In this document: positions 14,674 through 38,580 of the stretch, one piece after another | Layout of the letters: each line of letters opens with the position of its first letter | Position numbering within the stretch: position 1 is the stretch's first letter | Assembly (NCBI GenBank): GCA_012517825.1 | Contig: JAAYUG010000092.1 | Span: forward strand, 1 to 51,672 | Source: Bacteroidales bacterium | Lineage (GTDB): Bacteria > Bacteroidota > Bacteroidia > Bacteroidales > JAAYUG01 | DNA: 51,672 bases | Direction: 5' to 3' | The notes under the pieces: model-generated | The model's input: only the letters and a program-made list of their open reading frames with translations | The model's database searches: none | What the model was told of the DNA's origin: nothing | Made by a program: the position numbers and the translations under genes

Positions 14674-16923
14674 ATGCATCTACGCTCTAAGATATGGTTC
14701 CTGAGTTTGATACTCTGCCTGCAGGCCTTCGGCCTGAAAGCACAGAATTCTCCGAACCGTCCGCGGGTTGGCCTGGTATTGAGCGGCGGCGCTGCCAAAG
14801 GACTTGCACATATTGGAGTTCTCAAAGTTCTCGAAGAAGCAGGAATTCCCATTGATATGGTAGCCGGTACCAGTATGGGCAGTATTGTGGGCGGACTCTA
14901 TGCACTGGGCTATTCCGCCGATTCCCTTGAAAAAATAGCCCTTTCTCAAAACTGGGCTGCCCTGCTCCTTGACGAAGTATCCCGGGACAATTACTCCAAT
15001 GATGAAAAAGACGAATTCGACAAATACATGGTCTCTTTTCCCGTAAAAGATCTTCGACCCCGCTTGCCGGGCGGACTAAAAACCGGACAGAATATTTCCC
15101 TGTTCCTGAACCGGCTCACCCTTCCTGCCTATTCCGTTTCCGATTTTAACCAATTGCCGCGACCCTTCCTCTGTATTGCCGCCGACATTGTCACCGGCGA
15201 TGAAGTAGTGCTCCGAAAAGGAAACCTCGCCCAGGCCCTGCGGGCAAGCATGGCAATTCCCTCGGTCTTTACACCCGTGCAAATCGATAACCACCTGCTC
15301 GTCGACGGTGGTATCGTTAACAACTTCCCTGCAGACCACCTGAAGGAAATGGGTGCCGATATTATCATCGGAGTTAATCTTGGCTTTCGCCTTCATTCAG
15401 AAAATGAACTGAATTCCCTCTCTTCCATACTGGAACAGTCAGTATTTTTCAGGGCCGCTGAACGCAACAAGCAGAATCAAAAACTGGTTGATATTCTTAT
15501 TCAGCCTGATGTCTATAAGAATTTTACTGCCGCCAGCTTTAATGAAGCAGCCAAACTGATTGCCGAAGGCGAACGCGCGGCCCGTGCTGTATGGCCCCAA
15601 TTGAAAGCACTGGCCGACAGCCTTGCAAAATACCAGCCATCCTCCCCTCCTTCCCTCCCACCAACGCCTGAATTCTTAGATATTACCAGCATTAATATAA
15701 ACGGCCTGAAAAATGTTTCCAAAAGCTTTGTACTTAACAAAATAAAATTTGACGTTCCTGGTTATTACAGTATTCAGGAAATTGAAAACGCCGTAGAACT
15801 GCTTTACGGTACACGATTCTTCAGCAAGGTTGAATATGCCCTTGTGCAAAACCCTGATTCCGGCGTCAACCTGATCTTTGATCTGGATGAAATCGATTAC
15901 GATCTCCTTCGGGTTGGCGGAAAATATGACTCGGAATACAAAGCCACTTTATTGGTTAATACAACATTCCGAAATCTTTTTCTGAAGGGTTCTCGGCTAA
16001 CCCTGGATTTTCGCCTGGGAGATCTTTCCCGCATAAAAGCCGCTTATACCATCCACTCCGCACTTCATACGGCACGAAGAGAGCAATGGATCAATGCTCC
16101 CTGGCTTCTCGCTGTCTTCCCTGATGTCACCTTGTCAACAGAATTCAGCCGCTATAATTATTATACCTATTCCGGCAATATCAAATCCGCTCTCTATAAC
16201 ATTTCAAAAACTAACCTTCAGCTGAAATCAACCAATAATTTCAGCAATTCTGTTTCACTTAGTTCCGACCTGTCTCTTGATTATTCTGCTACCGACGCAA
16301 AGTTCGTTACCTATAACCTGAGCGAGTCATATTCTCATCTCTTTGCCAGCCTGGGAACAACTTTGCTTGTCGATACCCGCGATTCGTATTTTGTGCCTAA
16401 CCGAGGATTATATACCTTTCTCCGTGCTGAAGCCATTCAGGATATCTCTTCCGGGAAAAATGATATTGAAGATATCGTTCGCCTTATTGGAAAATGGAGC
16501 ATTTCCCTCCCCCTTGTGAGAAATAAACTGGTCCTTTCTCCGCAGACAATGATCGGATATAATTTTAAGCCGGTCTCTGTTCCTGATTACAGCCTGTATA
16601 TAGGCGGTAACAGCATTCACCCTGTAAATGAAGGTTCTTTCCCTTTCCCTGGCATAGAATATTTCGAAAGGTCAGGCCAGGCTGTCTTTGTTCAGAATGT
16701 GCAGTTTCAGTTTCAGATGTTTCAGAATCATTATATTATCGCCCAGGGAAATATGGGTAGTGCGCAGGAATCAATATATAATCTCCTGGTGAACCGCCCG
16801 TTTTACGGTGTCTGTCTTTCTTACTGCTATAACAGCGTAGTTGGTCCTCTTATTATTTCAGTCCATTCCAGTGAAATCCATCCGGCTCCCGGATTTTTCC
16901 TGAGCTTTGGATACAGACTTTGA
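14674..16923 (+). CDS. Patatin-like phospholipase fused to POTRA and outer-membrane barrel (PlpD/type Vd-like)
   Basis: 749 residues with a signal peptide (MHLRSKIWFLSLILCLQAFG). The patatin domain (about 28-310) has the oxyanion loop GLVLSGGAAKGLAHIG, the nucleophile motif GTSMG near residue 65 and the catalytic DGG near 210, so the Ser-Asp dyad looks intact. A POTRA-like segment starts near 337 (ITSININGLKNVSKSFVLNK), and a 16-strand-type surface-antigen barrel fills 420-749, ending in a C-terminal FGYRL. The architecture matches the type Vd autotransporter PlpD, in which the barrel carries the lipase to the cell surface. Bacteroidota have many such proteins, and whether the passenger faces out is not settled. 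It is a single gene, convergent with hemW. Confidence 0.9.
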   Translation: MHLRSKIWFLSLILCLQAFGLKAQNSPNRPRVGLVLSGGAAKGLAHIGVLKVLEEAGIPIDMVAGTSMGSIVGGLYALGYSADSLEKIALSQNWAALLLDEVSRDNYSNDEKDEFDKYMVSFPVKDLRPRLPGGLKTGQNISLFLNRLTLPAYSVSDFNQLPRPFLCIAADIVTGDEVVLRKGNLAQALRASMAIPSVFTPVQIDNHLLVDGGIVNNFPADHLKEMGADIIIGVNLGFRLHSENELNSLSSILEQSVFFRAAERNKQNQKLVDILIQPDVYKNFTAASFNEAAKLIAEGERAARAVWPQLKALADSLAKYQPSSPPSLPPTPEFLDITSININGLKNVSKSFVLNKIKFDVPGYYSIQEIENAVELLYGTRFFSKVEYALVQNPDSGVNLIFDLDEIDYDLLRVGGKYDSEYKATLLVNTTFRNLFLKGSRLTLDFRLGDLSRIKAAYTIHSALHTARREQWINAPWLLAVFPDVTLSTEFSRYNYYTYSGNIKSALYNISKTNLQLKSTNNFSNSVSLSSDLSLDYSATDAKFVTYNLSESYSHLFASLGTTLLVDTRDSYFVPNRGLYTFLRAEAIQDISSGKNDIEDIVRLIGKWSISLPLVRNKLVLSPQTMIGYNFKPVSVPDYSLYIGGNSIHPVNEGSFPFPGIEYFERSGQAVFVQNVQFQFQMFQNHYIIAQGNMGSAQESIYNLLVNRPFYGVCLSYCYNSVVGPLIISVHSSEIHPAPGFFLSFGYRL

Positions 16924-17026
16924 TCCGCAAGGGCCGCTTCCTCTGCGTTTCAGCGGGGTTGACCCGGATGCTTTCACAATAACCCACCCACTGCACAATA
17001 GTTCGCTTGCTTTCCTGATGCGCAAC
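16924..17026 (+). repeat. Dispersed intergenic repeat, copy A
   Basis: The block 16944-16969 matches 38472-38497 at 23 of 26 positions. After a spacer of 21 bases here and 22 there, 16991-17026 matches 38520-38555 at 25 of 36 positions. The second block folds as an imperfect hairpin around TTCGCTTGCTTTC. The element starts right after the patatin stop codon. It may be a decayed REP/MITE-like element; no open frame is shared by the copies. Confidence 0.65.
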
Positions 17027-17067
17027 AGGGGCTTATCGTATTCAAAAAATCTCAGGAAATAGAACGA

Positions 17068-17123
17068 GATAAGTCAATAGAAACACAAAAAACATTTCAA
17101 CAACTTGTTTCTATTGACTTATC
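17068..17123. repeat. Perfect 18-bp inverted repeat (hairpin 1)
   Basis: GATAAGTCAATAGAAACA (17068-17085) is the exact reverse complement of 17106-17123, with a 20-base loop. It lies between convergent genes. No run of T follows it closely on either strand, so it is not a classic terminator. Confidence 0.8.
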
Positions 17124-17134
17124 GAGGTAATCCC

Positions 17135-17166
17135 GACTGATAAAATCTGATTAGATTTTGTTAGTC
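17135..17166. repeat. 13-bp hairpin 2 with two wobble pairs
   Basis: 17135-17147 pairs with 17154-17166 around the loop TGATTA; 11 Watson-Crick and two G-T pairs on the plus-strand RNA. It is the second of three consecutive hairpins. Confidence 0.6.
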
Positions 17167-17167
17167 G

Positions 17168-17198
17168 ATTCATCAATTGAGTTTTTCAATTGACGAAT
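17168..17198. repeat. 13-bp hairpin 3 overlapping the hemW stop codon
   Basis: ATTCATCAATTGA (17168-17180) pairs with TCAATTGACGAAT (17186-17198), one wobble, 5-base loop. The hemW stop codon (17173-17175 on the minus strand) lies inside the distal arm, so the last hemW codons are part of the stem. Confidence 0.65.
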
Positions 17199-18324
17199 TT
17201 GGAATAAATAAGGAAGAAATAATGGTGTCTGAAATGAACATTCCGGTATTCGTTAACCTGTACCTGCCTCTTTTAACTTCGATGTGACCCTTTCCGGCAT
17301 ATTTTGAAATGCCTTTGATAAAATACCTTGCAAGTTCTTCTCCGAATTTCTCTCTGATTTCCTCTTCAGTCACCCCATCATCAGTTCGAAGTGCCGTTAA
17401 AAGGTATTCATTGTACAGGTCCTTGTCGGATAATTGCTCCTCCTCATAATATCGTTTGCCTTCCTTTATTGCCAGTATGTAATGGTAAAGCGAGGAAATA
17501 TTCCACCTTCGTGAAATCCCATTGTAGGAATGCGCTGAAGGTCCTATACCACAATATATCTTTCCCTCCCAGTATCCTTTGTTATGCCTTGCCATAAAGC
17601 CTTCGCGGCAGAAATTGGAAATTTCATAATGCCGGTACCCCAGGCTGGCCGAAAATTCACACAGCATCATGTATTGTTCAAATTGTTCTTCTTCACCGGG
17701 CAAACTAACCTCCTCTTCAACAATATCCTGATAAAGAACCGTTCCCTTCTCAGGGGTTAGTAAATAGGCTGAAAAATGAGGAATATCAAAACGTTCCAGT
17801 ATGTGCAGATCCTGAAAAAGGTGATCCGCTGTATATCCCGGGGAACCATAAATTAAATCAATACTTATGCTGGGAATCCCTTCCTGCCGGAGGATATCAA
17901 TGGCTTCCATGGCTTTGCCTGCAGTATGCCTTCTGTCCATAAACTTCAGGACAAAATCCTGAAAAGATTGTACACCCAGGCTTATCCTGTTGATTCCTGC
18001 TCTTCTGAGCGCCTGCACAAAATCCCTGCTGATATCATCAGGATTGGCTTCCAGGGTAATTTCCGGACAGGAATCTACCTGAAACCAGTTCTTTATATTG
18101 TCAATGCACTTTTTATAAAAATCGGGAGCCATCAGACTGGGAGTTCCTCCTCCAAAATAGATACTTTCAACTGCCTCCTTCCCGAGATAACCTCTTCGTT
18201 CTTCCATTTCCTTTTGCAGGCATTCGCCCAGTTCCTGCATCCGCCTCAAATCAATAGTATGGTAAAAATCACAGTAAACACAGGATGATTTGCAGAATGG
18301 AATATGAAAATAGATTCCGGCCAT
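17173..18324 (-). CDS. hemW: Radical SAM protein HemW (coproporphyrinogen III oxidase-like haem chaperone)
   Basis: 383 residues. The radical-SAM cluster motif C11-x3-C15-x2-C18 is followed by Y/F aromatic residues (CVYCDFYH), and the SAM-binding GGGTPS motif is near residue 62. LEANPDDI and RISLGVQSFQD are typical of the HemN/HemW group. The length and the C-terminal HemN_C domain fit HemW, which inserts haem into acceptors rather than oxidising coproporphyrinogen; the very short N-terminus (Cys cluster at residue 11) argues against true HemN. It is divergent from vanZ with 68 bases to the preferred vanZ start. The end of the gene overlaps a hairpin. Confidence 0.9.
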   Translation of the reverse strand: MAGIYFHIPFCKSSCVYCDFYHTIDLRRMQELGECLQKEMEERRGYLGKEAVESIYFGGGTPSLMAPDFYKKCIDNIKNWFQVDSCPEITLEANPDDISRDFVQALRRAGINRISLGVQSFQDFVLKFMDRRHTAGKAMEAIDILRQEGIPSISIDLIYGSPGYTADHLFQDLHILERFDIPHFSAYLLTPEKGTVLYQDIVEEEVSLPGEEEQFEQYMMLCEFSASLGYRHYEISNFCREGFMARHNKGYWEGKIYCGIGPSAHSYNGISRRWNISSLYHYILAIKEGKRYYEEEQLSDKDLYNEYLLTALRTDDGVTEEEIREKFGEELARYFIKGISKYAGKGHIEVKRGRYRLTNTGMFISDTIISSLFIPNSSIEKLN

Positions 18325-34882: not shown

Positions 34883-34898
34883 TGTTCCACGTGGAACA
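34883..34898. other. parS-type ParB-binding site 1 (perfect 16-bp palindrome)
   Basis: TGTTCCACGTGGAACA is a perfect palindrome. It keeps the CACGTG core and flanks of the universal chromosomal parS (TGTTTCACGTGAAACA), with the C/G variant known from pseudomonads. It begins on the base after the mnmG stop codon. Confidence 0.85.
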
Positions 34899-34927
34899 AA
34901 AAATGTAAAATCGGAAGTTATTAACAT

Positions 34928-34943
34928 TGTTCCACGTGGAACG
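34928..34943. other. parS-type ParB-binding site 2
   Basis: TGTTCCACGTGGAACG matches site 1 at 15 of 16 positions, with a perfect 14-bp palindrome. Its centre is exactly 45 bp from that of site 1. It lies 26 bases before the adenine deaminase start. Confidence 0.85.
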
Positions 34944-34969
34944 TTAATTATAAAATCAGTTAAATTCAA

Positions 34970-36613: not shown

Positions 36614-38419
36614 ATGAATAAGGAAATCCTGAAAGAAACCATCGCACTCCTGCCCGAAAAACCAGGCATATACCAGTTTTTCGATCAATCGGGCAAATTG
36701 ATTTATGTCGGAAAAGCCAAGAATCTGAAAAAAAGAGTCAGTTCCTATTTTTCCAGGACAACCTTCGAGAACAGAAAAATACAGGTCATGGTTGGGAAAG
36801 TTCATGAAATTAAACACATTGTTGTCCCAACTGAACACGATGCTCTTCTGCTTGAAAACAATTTCATTAAGGAATATCAGCCACGATACAATGTACTTCT
36901 GAAAGATGACAAAACATTTCCCTGGATCTGCATAAAGAACGAACGATTTCCCCGTGTATTCCTTACAAGAAAAATTGTGAATGATGGCTCATCGTATTTC
37001 GGACCCTATACTTCAGCGCAGATGGTCCGAACCCTTCTGGCACTCATTCGGGAACTTTACTCACTGAGAACCTGCAACCTGAATTTGTCAGAAGAAAATA
37101 TCAATGCCCAAAAATTCAAAGTATGCCTGGAGTACCACATGGGCAACTGCAAAGGTCCCTGCGAAGGACTTCAAAGAGAAAATGATTACAATCAAACCAT
37201 TGACCAGATTCGTAAAATACTGAAAGGACACATTAACGAAGTTATTGAATACCTCGAAGAAACCATGAGAAACCTGGCAAAGGAATATCGTTTCGAGGAA
37301 GCAGAAATTATCCGGCAAAAACTGGAGCTCTTATCTAAATTCAGAGGAAAATCTGTCATTGTTAATCCGTCTATTACCAATGTCGATGTGTTTTCTATCT
37401 TAACCGATGGAAATACTTCCATCATTAATTTCATTAAAGTGATTAAAGGTTCTGTAATACAGTCACATACAATTGAAATACAAAAAAAGCTCGATGAAAC
37501 AGAACCTGAAATCCTTGCTCTTGCAATAGCCAGCCTTCGAACCAGGTATGAGAGCAATGCCACGGAAATTATTGTCCCTATTTTGCCCGAATTAAAAATC
37601 CAGGGAGTAAGGTACACCATACCCAAAGAAGGAGACAAGAAAAAACTGCTCGACTTTTCTCTCAACAATGCACTAATTTATAAAAGATCAAAAGATATTT
37701 CTTCCCTGTCGCAAAAAAAACTTAGACGTAAGGAAGAAATTCTGGAACAGCTGAAAAAAGACTTACACCTTCACAATTTGCCCACGCGAATTGAGTGTTT
37801 TGACAATAGCAACCTTCAGGGCACAAATCCCGTGGCAGCCTGTGTGGTGTTTCTGAACGGCAAACCGGCTCCGGGTGAATACCGGCACTATCATGTCAAA
37901 ACAGTTGATCATCCCGATGATTTTGCCTCCATGGAAGAAATTATTTTCCGCCGATACAAACGTGTGCTCGATGAAAACCTGCCTCTCCCGGACCTGGTTG
38001 TAATCGATGGAGGAAAAGGCCAGATCAGCGCCGCTATAAAGAGCCTTGAAAAACTGAAATTAAACAAAAAAATTGCAGTTATTGGAATTGCAAAAAAATT
38101 GGAGGAAATTTACTTTCCGAACGATCCCTACCCGCTGTATCTTGACAAAAACTCACCATCCCTGCGTCTCATTCAACATATACGAAACGAAGCCCACCGG
38201 TTCGGGATCACCTTTCACCGGCAGAAAAGAAGCAAGGCCTTTATACATTCCGAACTGGACGATATTAAAGGAATAGGGGAATCAACCCGTCAGAAATTAA
38301 TGGAAAAGTTTAAATCAGTAAGTGTAATTAGAACATTATCAATACGTAATCTGGAAGAAATTATTGGCACGAATAAGGCCCGAATGGTCTATGATTATTT
38401 TCATCGAGACAAAGAATAA
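36614..38419 (+). CDS. uvrC: Excinuclease ABC subunit C
   Basis: 601 residues. The order is GIY-YIG nuclease (PGIYQFFDQSGKLIYVGKAK, residues 16-35), Cys-rich hinge (CLEYHMGNCKGPC), UvrB-binding UVR motif (LAKEYRFEEAEIIRQKLEL), RNase-H-like 5' nuclease (IECFDNSNLQGTNPVAACVV) and C-terminal helix-hairpin-helix (LDDIKGIGESTRQKLMEKF). UvrC makes both incisions in nucleotide excision repair. It follows ade closely and shares its C-rich coding strand. Confidence 0.97.
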   Translation: MNKEILKETIALLPEKPGIYQFFDQSGKLIYVGKAKNLKKRVSSYFSRTTFENRKIQVMVGKVHEIKHIVVPTEHDALLLENNFIKEYQPRYNVLLKDDKTFPWICIKNERFPRVFLTRKIVNDGSSYFGPYTSAQMVRTLLALIRELYSLRTCNLNLSEENINAQKFKVCLEYHMGNCKGPCEGLQRENDYNQTIDQIRKILKGHINEVIEYLEETMRNLAKEYRFEEAEIIRQKLELLSKFRGKSVIVNPSITNVDVFSILTDGNTSIINFIKVIKGSVIQSHTIEIQKKLDETEPEILALAIASLRTRYESNATEIIVPILPELKIQGVRYTIPKEGDKKKLLDFSLNNALIYKRSKDISSLSQKKLRRKEEILEQLKKDLHLHNLPTRIECFDNSNLQGTNPVAACVVFLNGKPAPGEYRHYHVKTVDHPDDFASMEEIIFRRYKRVLDENLPLPDLVVIDGGKGQISAAIKSLEKLKLNKKIAVIGIAKKLEEIYFPNDPYPLYLDKNSPSLRLIQHIRNEAHRFGITFHRQKRSKAFIHSELDDIKGIGESTRQKLMEKFKSVSVIRTLSIRNLEEIIGTNKARMVYDYFHRDKE

Positions 38420-38440
38420 TCGAAATTTTGCATCAAAAAA

Positions 38441-38555
38441 ATGCGCAACCTGCCTCATGGGACTGCTTCACTGCGTTTCGGCGGGGTTAACCTGGATACC
38501 TCCGCAAAAGGATAAAGCACTGCGCATTAGTTCGTTATCACTTCTAATGCGCCAT
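38441..38555 (+). repeat. Dispersed intergenic repeat, copy B, with perfect 9-bp hairpin
   Basis: It shares two conserved blocks with copy A at 16924-17026 (see that entry). In this copy GCGCATTAG (38522-38530) and CTAATGCGC (38544-38552) form a perfect stem with a 13-base loop. ATGCGC occurs at both ends of the element. It begins 22 bases after the uvrC stop. Confidence 0.65.
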
Positions 38556-38580
38556 TAGATATAACATAATTTTCGTTACC

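Follow-up and report, generated by a model that had tools for sequence, protein, structure and literature searches.

Bacterial MITEs such as RUP, NEMIS/Correia, ERIC, YPAL, and Nezha are non-coding, dispersed elements of 70–300 bp with inverted ends of 15–30 bp; they have strong secondary structure and often adjoin genes (PMC3733652). In Porphyromonas gingivalis, the BrickBuilt MITE contains a 23-nt minisatellite inside the element (PMC4596501). Here we analysed a repeat located in a window of 51,672 nt, the whole stretch of DNA under study, which is contig C92 of a 3.3-Mb host genome of 207 contigs (G000). Likened by description, the repeat resembles the former MITEs in size, inverted ends, dispersal, and folding, but it has three conserved hairpin blocks common to families of one order, and no parent transposase was found in the searches. 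Like BrickBuilt, a MITE of Bacteroidota, it combines internal tandem repeats with inverted ends (PMC4596501), but in the present family the tandem unit (107 or 145 nt) is the entire element. Like REP/BIME sequences with their RAYT, it is palindromic, intergenic, and clustered (PMC3733652). However, it is longer, is flanked by 5-bp duplications in relatives, has no RAYT link, and, unlike REP/BIME, shows no GTAG (or CGTC) tag at any hairpin foot in our alignments. With regard to integron attC sites and CALIN, the arrays of the element run head to tail with no genes between copies. We recognised no literature on repeats with this motif. With a probability of about 0.75, the repeat is a new family, old and widespread, of non-autonomous, MITE-like elements that was amplified in tandem in the host genome.

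Two copies in the window

Copies A and B of the initial annotation were read directly from the window sequence at the places given there, in the same orientation (Table 1), except that copy B, annotated at 38441–38555, reaches further on both sides (38421–38560). Their alignment covered 101 columns with 70% identity and scored 52.5 bits, compared with 22.6 bits for the next-best window match to copy B and 35.4 bits for the best among 300 order-1 (Markov) randomised versions of copy B. As annotated, both copies lie directly behind stop codons, TGA of the patatin/Omp85 gene (16921–16923) for copy A and TAA of uvrC (38417–38419) for copy B. The stem of copy B was confirmed as a perfect 9-bp pairing of GCGCATTAG with CTAATGCGC, and most of it persists in copy A, where two positions are mismatched and one pair is G-U. 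In copy A, the 5′ hairpin (H0) has either disappeared or been replaced by the final part of the patatin gene, and this copy is recognisable from ca. 16924. The flanks of copy B agree at 4/5 bases, which alone is not significant.

Table 1 Features of the two copies of the element in the window.
Feature	Position	Strand	Details	Basis
Copy A	16905..17031	+		R2 cmsearch E 6.4e-21; best genome-wide BLAST 8.5e-23
Copy A hairpin H3	16993..17023	+	Arms 16993-17001 / 17015-17023, loop TTCGCTTGCTTTC	Sequence and model alignment
Copy B, full length	38421..38560	+	Model positions 1-140	R2 cmsearch E 2e-24; best genome-wide BLAST 4.3e-23
Copy B hairpin H3	38522..38552	+	Perfect 9-bp arms 38522-38530 / 38544-38552	Sequence
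Copy B candidate left target duplication	38416..38420	+	ATAAT; overlaps uvrC stop codon	Sequence flanks
Copy B candidate right target duplication	38561..38565	+	ATAAC	Sequence flanks

The surroundings of both copies are ordinary, with the patatin/Omp85 gene and a HemN-like radical SAM gene at copy A, and uvrC and an alpha/beta hydrolase gene at copy B. The identities of uvrC reach 59% at most, to Bacteroidales-like MAGs and Flavobacteriia, which assigns the window to Bacteroidota. In line with the earlier statement that no transposase is present, genome-wide searches with PF01797, PF13701, and PF01609 gave no match on the window contig. As part of the above reading, copies A and B are best explained as old, decayed single insertions. 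By eye, more inverted repeats (e.g., TAAGTCAATAGAAAC/GTTTCTATTGACTTA) were seen just behind copy A at 17070–17200, one of which is possibly a terminator for convergent genes.

Copy number and fold of the element

The repeat had initially been described as two-copy, which proved far too low. BLAST returned 59 matches in G000 with copy B as the query and 75 with copy A. The covariance model R1, which represents a 109-nt core and was built from 57 copies, gave at least 125 matches at E values up to 0.01; this number is a floor because 150 candidates were scored. The finding thus survived the genome-wide search for further copies, and the element most likely represents a passenger moved by a transposase, in a previously uncatalogued family of more than 100 copies.

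In G000, many copies form head-to-tail arrays that repeat every 107 nt, or every 145 nt with an extra 5′ hairpin. Copies often lie at contig ends (e.g., C109, C117, C130, C6, C32, C35, C80, C112, C151, C161, C187, and C191); therefore, the arrays probably broke the assembly of this genome. Fusions of certain copies to two further repeat families occur as well. Other dispersed repeats were also observed in G000 (L072, L074, L077, L075, L063, and L081), including AACCCCGAAGGGGTGGCATTAT..., CGAAACCGGAGGTTTCGAATTCCAATG..., and GAAAGTAACCAAATCCCGCATAAGAAAAT..., and some of them are joined to the element.

The full element of ca. 139–140 bp is non-coding, with variable sequence, frequent indels, and no conserved reading frame. 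It opens with CC and hairpin H0, which a short spacer separates from hairpin H1; an outer stem (AACCCGGAT paired with ATCCGGGTT) then surrounds hairpin H3, and the last bases are GGG. The terminal inverted repeats (CC.GATT.TGCATTA...) are imperfect, and the end pattern is CC(T/C)GATT.TGCATTAG. In the same-genus relative G001, the 5′ end CCTGATTCATGCATTAG matches the reverse complement of the 3′ end, CCCGGATTATGCATTAGGAG, imperfectly and with a one-base gap.

To read the fold, 37 full-length copies from three genomes were aligned without structure, and the structure was then taken from the alignment. Pairing was seen in 88.9% of the cells compared with 81.2% in shuffles, and 107 cells were double-changed (compensatory) compared with 32 ± 5 in shuffles, a signal that was lost in every slid register. 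H0 alone showed compensatory change at 9/11 pairs, while H1 is under-counted in the G001 type because the alignment shifts it by one base there. These results show that the three-block hairpin fold is real and supported by strong covariation. In genomes from several families, the H3 loop, TTYRYTWnnnYTC, can still be recognised, in contrast to the divergent outer stem; percentages from this comparison were left out, as one representative (L113) was mis-assigned. The window gave no Rfam match for the element at gathering or relaxed thresholds.

Insertion signature and distribution in relatives

Perfect 5-bp direct repeats (e.g., ATAAA, ATTAT, TTGAA, and TTCAA) flank 9/12 full copies of G001 at a fixed boundary. 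When the flanks were re-paired between copies, the mean was 1.4 perfect repeats and the maximum was 7 in 20,000 permutations. In G234, a distant genome of another family with 14 good full copies, four of the 14 had a perfect 5-bp duplication at a boundary one base outside the best BLAST start (p 0.009, an optimistic value because the offset was picked after looking at five offsets). The pooled perfect duplications amounted to 13/26 against 2.1 expected in the control, and the copy of G064 has TTTAA on both sides. Position 2 was T and position 4 was A in all 14 perfect duplications, with a target consensus of WTNAW. None of 21 single copies in G000 had a perfect duplication at the chosen boundary, and total identity was not significant (p 0.06). 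Therefore, the transposition signature belongs to the relatives and is presumed for the window.

Among 99 relatives, R1 matched G001 (at least 31 matches) and G064 (one copy). G002, which belongs to the same family as the host, had the element nowhere in searches with R1 and the full-length covariance model R2; hence, the distribution is patchy. When 393 genomes sampled from the order were searched with R2, related elements were detected in 11, among them G234, G246, and G260. No match was obtained in phage records, plasmid records, or a viral contig collection. We found no conserved orthologous site for copy A or B: the incomplete assembly of G001 gave no match to uvrC or the patatin gene, and in the element-free G002, uvrC is present and the patatin/Omp85 protein is matched only weakly. 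No element occurred near uvrC in 28 named Bacteroidota loci. At most one site seems common to G000 and G001 (L147 compared with the ends of contigs C35 and C151).

G260 (L299 1–529, L300 18726–19034, and L301 18178–19196) has 37-nt CRISPR-type repeats, GTCTTAATCCTTG-TTTT-AATGGACAATGTACTACGAC, with unique spacers of 36–43 nt. Many of these repeats are interrupted at the central TTTT by one of two inserts, either a hairpin (40 nt separating the two parts of the repeat) or a 102-nt sequence related to the element (R2 E 2e-16). Next to repeats with an insert, the same spacer-like sequence occurs repeatedly. No Cas protein was present among ten neighbouring proteins scanned.

Mobilisation and alternative explanations

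The initial annotation had suggested a REP- or MITE-like element or a small structured RNA. The MITE part was supported by the inverted ends, copy number, non-coding character, and length within 70–300 bp, together with the 5-bp duplications seen in relatives and not significant in G000, while the REP/RAYT part was not supported. A cut-and-paste (DDE-type) transposase supplied in trans would have acted on the similar ends and placed the element at AT-rich sites between genes, in many cases adjacent to a stop codon, presumably because TAA fits the target. In the species of the window, most dispersed copies would since have decayed, and the family would have grown largely as head-to-tail arrays, probably via slippage or unequal recombination, with loss of H0 yielding the 107-nt unit.

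Searches with PF01797, PF13701, and PF01609 and inspection of partial copies revealed no autonomous element with matching ends, and no half-copies flanking a gene were found in G234. As for candidate mobilisers, the IS1380 transposase (PF13701) had no match in three genomes. The PF01609 match in G001 is enclosed by inverted arms, GAGGCTGTCTAAAA, that do not resemble the element, and that in G000 is a fragment with no intact ORF.

Spread as REP/BIME-type palindromes by a REP-associated tyrosine transposase (RAYT) would agree with the hairpins, intergenic position, and arrays, and genes with a Y1 transposase domain (PF01797) were present in three of four genomes checked (G000, G001, and G002, with no match in G064). 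However, target duplications are not an expected product of RAYTs, and such 5-bp duplications occur in the relatives. Presence of the gene and of the element also fails to coincide: G064 carries the element but gave no PF01797 match, and a Y1 gene is present in G002, which lacks the element. A RAYT/IS200-type transposase with matching ends, for which the initial annotation had proposed a search, did not emerge, as the sole Y1 match of G000 (contig C51) has unrelated REPs of its own (CCAGCAGGGATGCTGG and CCAGAGCAGGGATGCTCTGG) in its flanks and the ends of the element are absent from the flanks of the single Y1 genes of G001 and G002. We therefore consider spread by a RAYT improbable. In contig C51 of G000 (L061/L150, 1–2336), the RAYT-like Y1 domain is in frame inside a methylase-like ORF (a 1270-aa open frame), which is shared by tandem 27-nt REP hairpins.

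The excess of compensatory cells and the H3 loop preserved in several families might instead reflect a structured RNA family of regulatory or processed transcripts, multicopy by chance. Covariation would also arise if folded DNA were the transposition substrate, however, and the insertion signatures, the lack of an Rfam match, and the free position and strand relative to genes leave such an RNA with a low probability. Hairpins directly behind the stop codons, as in copies A and B, could be exapted bidirectional terminators or mRNA 3′-end stabilisers kept by selection. In G001, however, rough ORF-based gene calls placed copies in convergent, tandem, and divergent gaps alike, with no dominant gap type and ca. 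8/21 classified copies between divergent genes; this argues against a dedicated terminator role, which appears very unlikely.

Against a plain MITE, conservation of the internal fold and of the H3 loop exceeds the needs of a mere transposase substrate; in addition, the above searches gave no autonomous element with matching ends, perfect duplications were seen at none of the single copies in the genome of the window, and one site may be common to G000 and G001. The element could be recognised in folded form, and would then be a mobile element guided by its hairpins, or a structured RNA that is transcribed, and not an ordinary double-strand MITE. In favour of this, the H3 loop was kept while the outer stem was rewritten by compensatory change, and the related insert sits exactly at the centre of the CRISPR-type repeats of G260. 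We judge this rather unlikely and favour the MITE family.

The family explains one group of intergenic hairpins that lack annotation in uncultivated Bacteroidales, marks several draft-assembly breaks in G000, and has a fold that can be traced by covariation across distant genomes. If this fold is itself the mobilisation signal, the family would offer a system in which to test transposition guided by structure. Elsewhere in the window, two TGTTCCACGTGGAAC palindromes (34883–34912 and 34928–34957) lie 45 nt apart behind a gene and presumably resemble parS sites.
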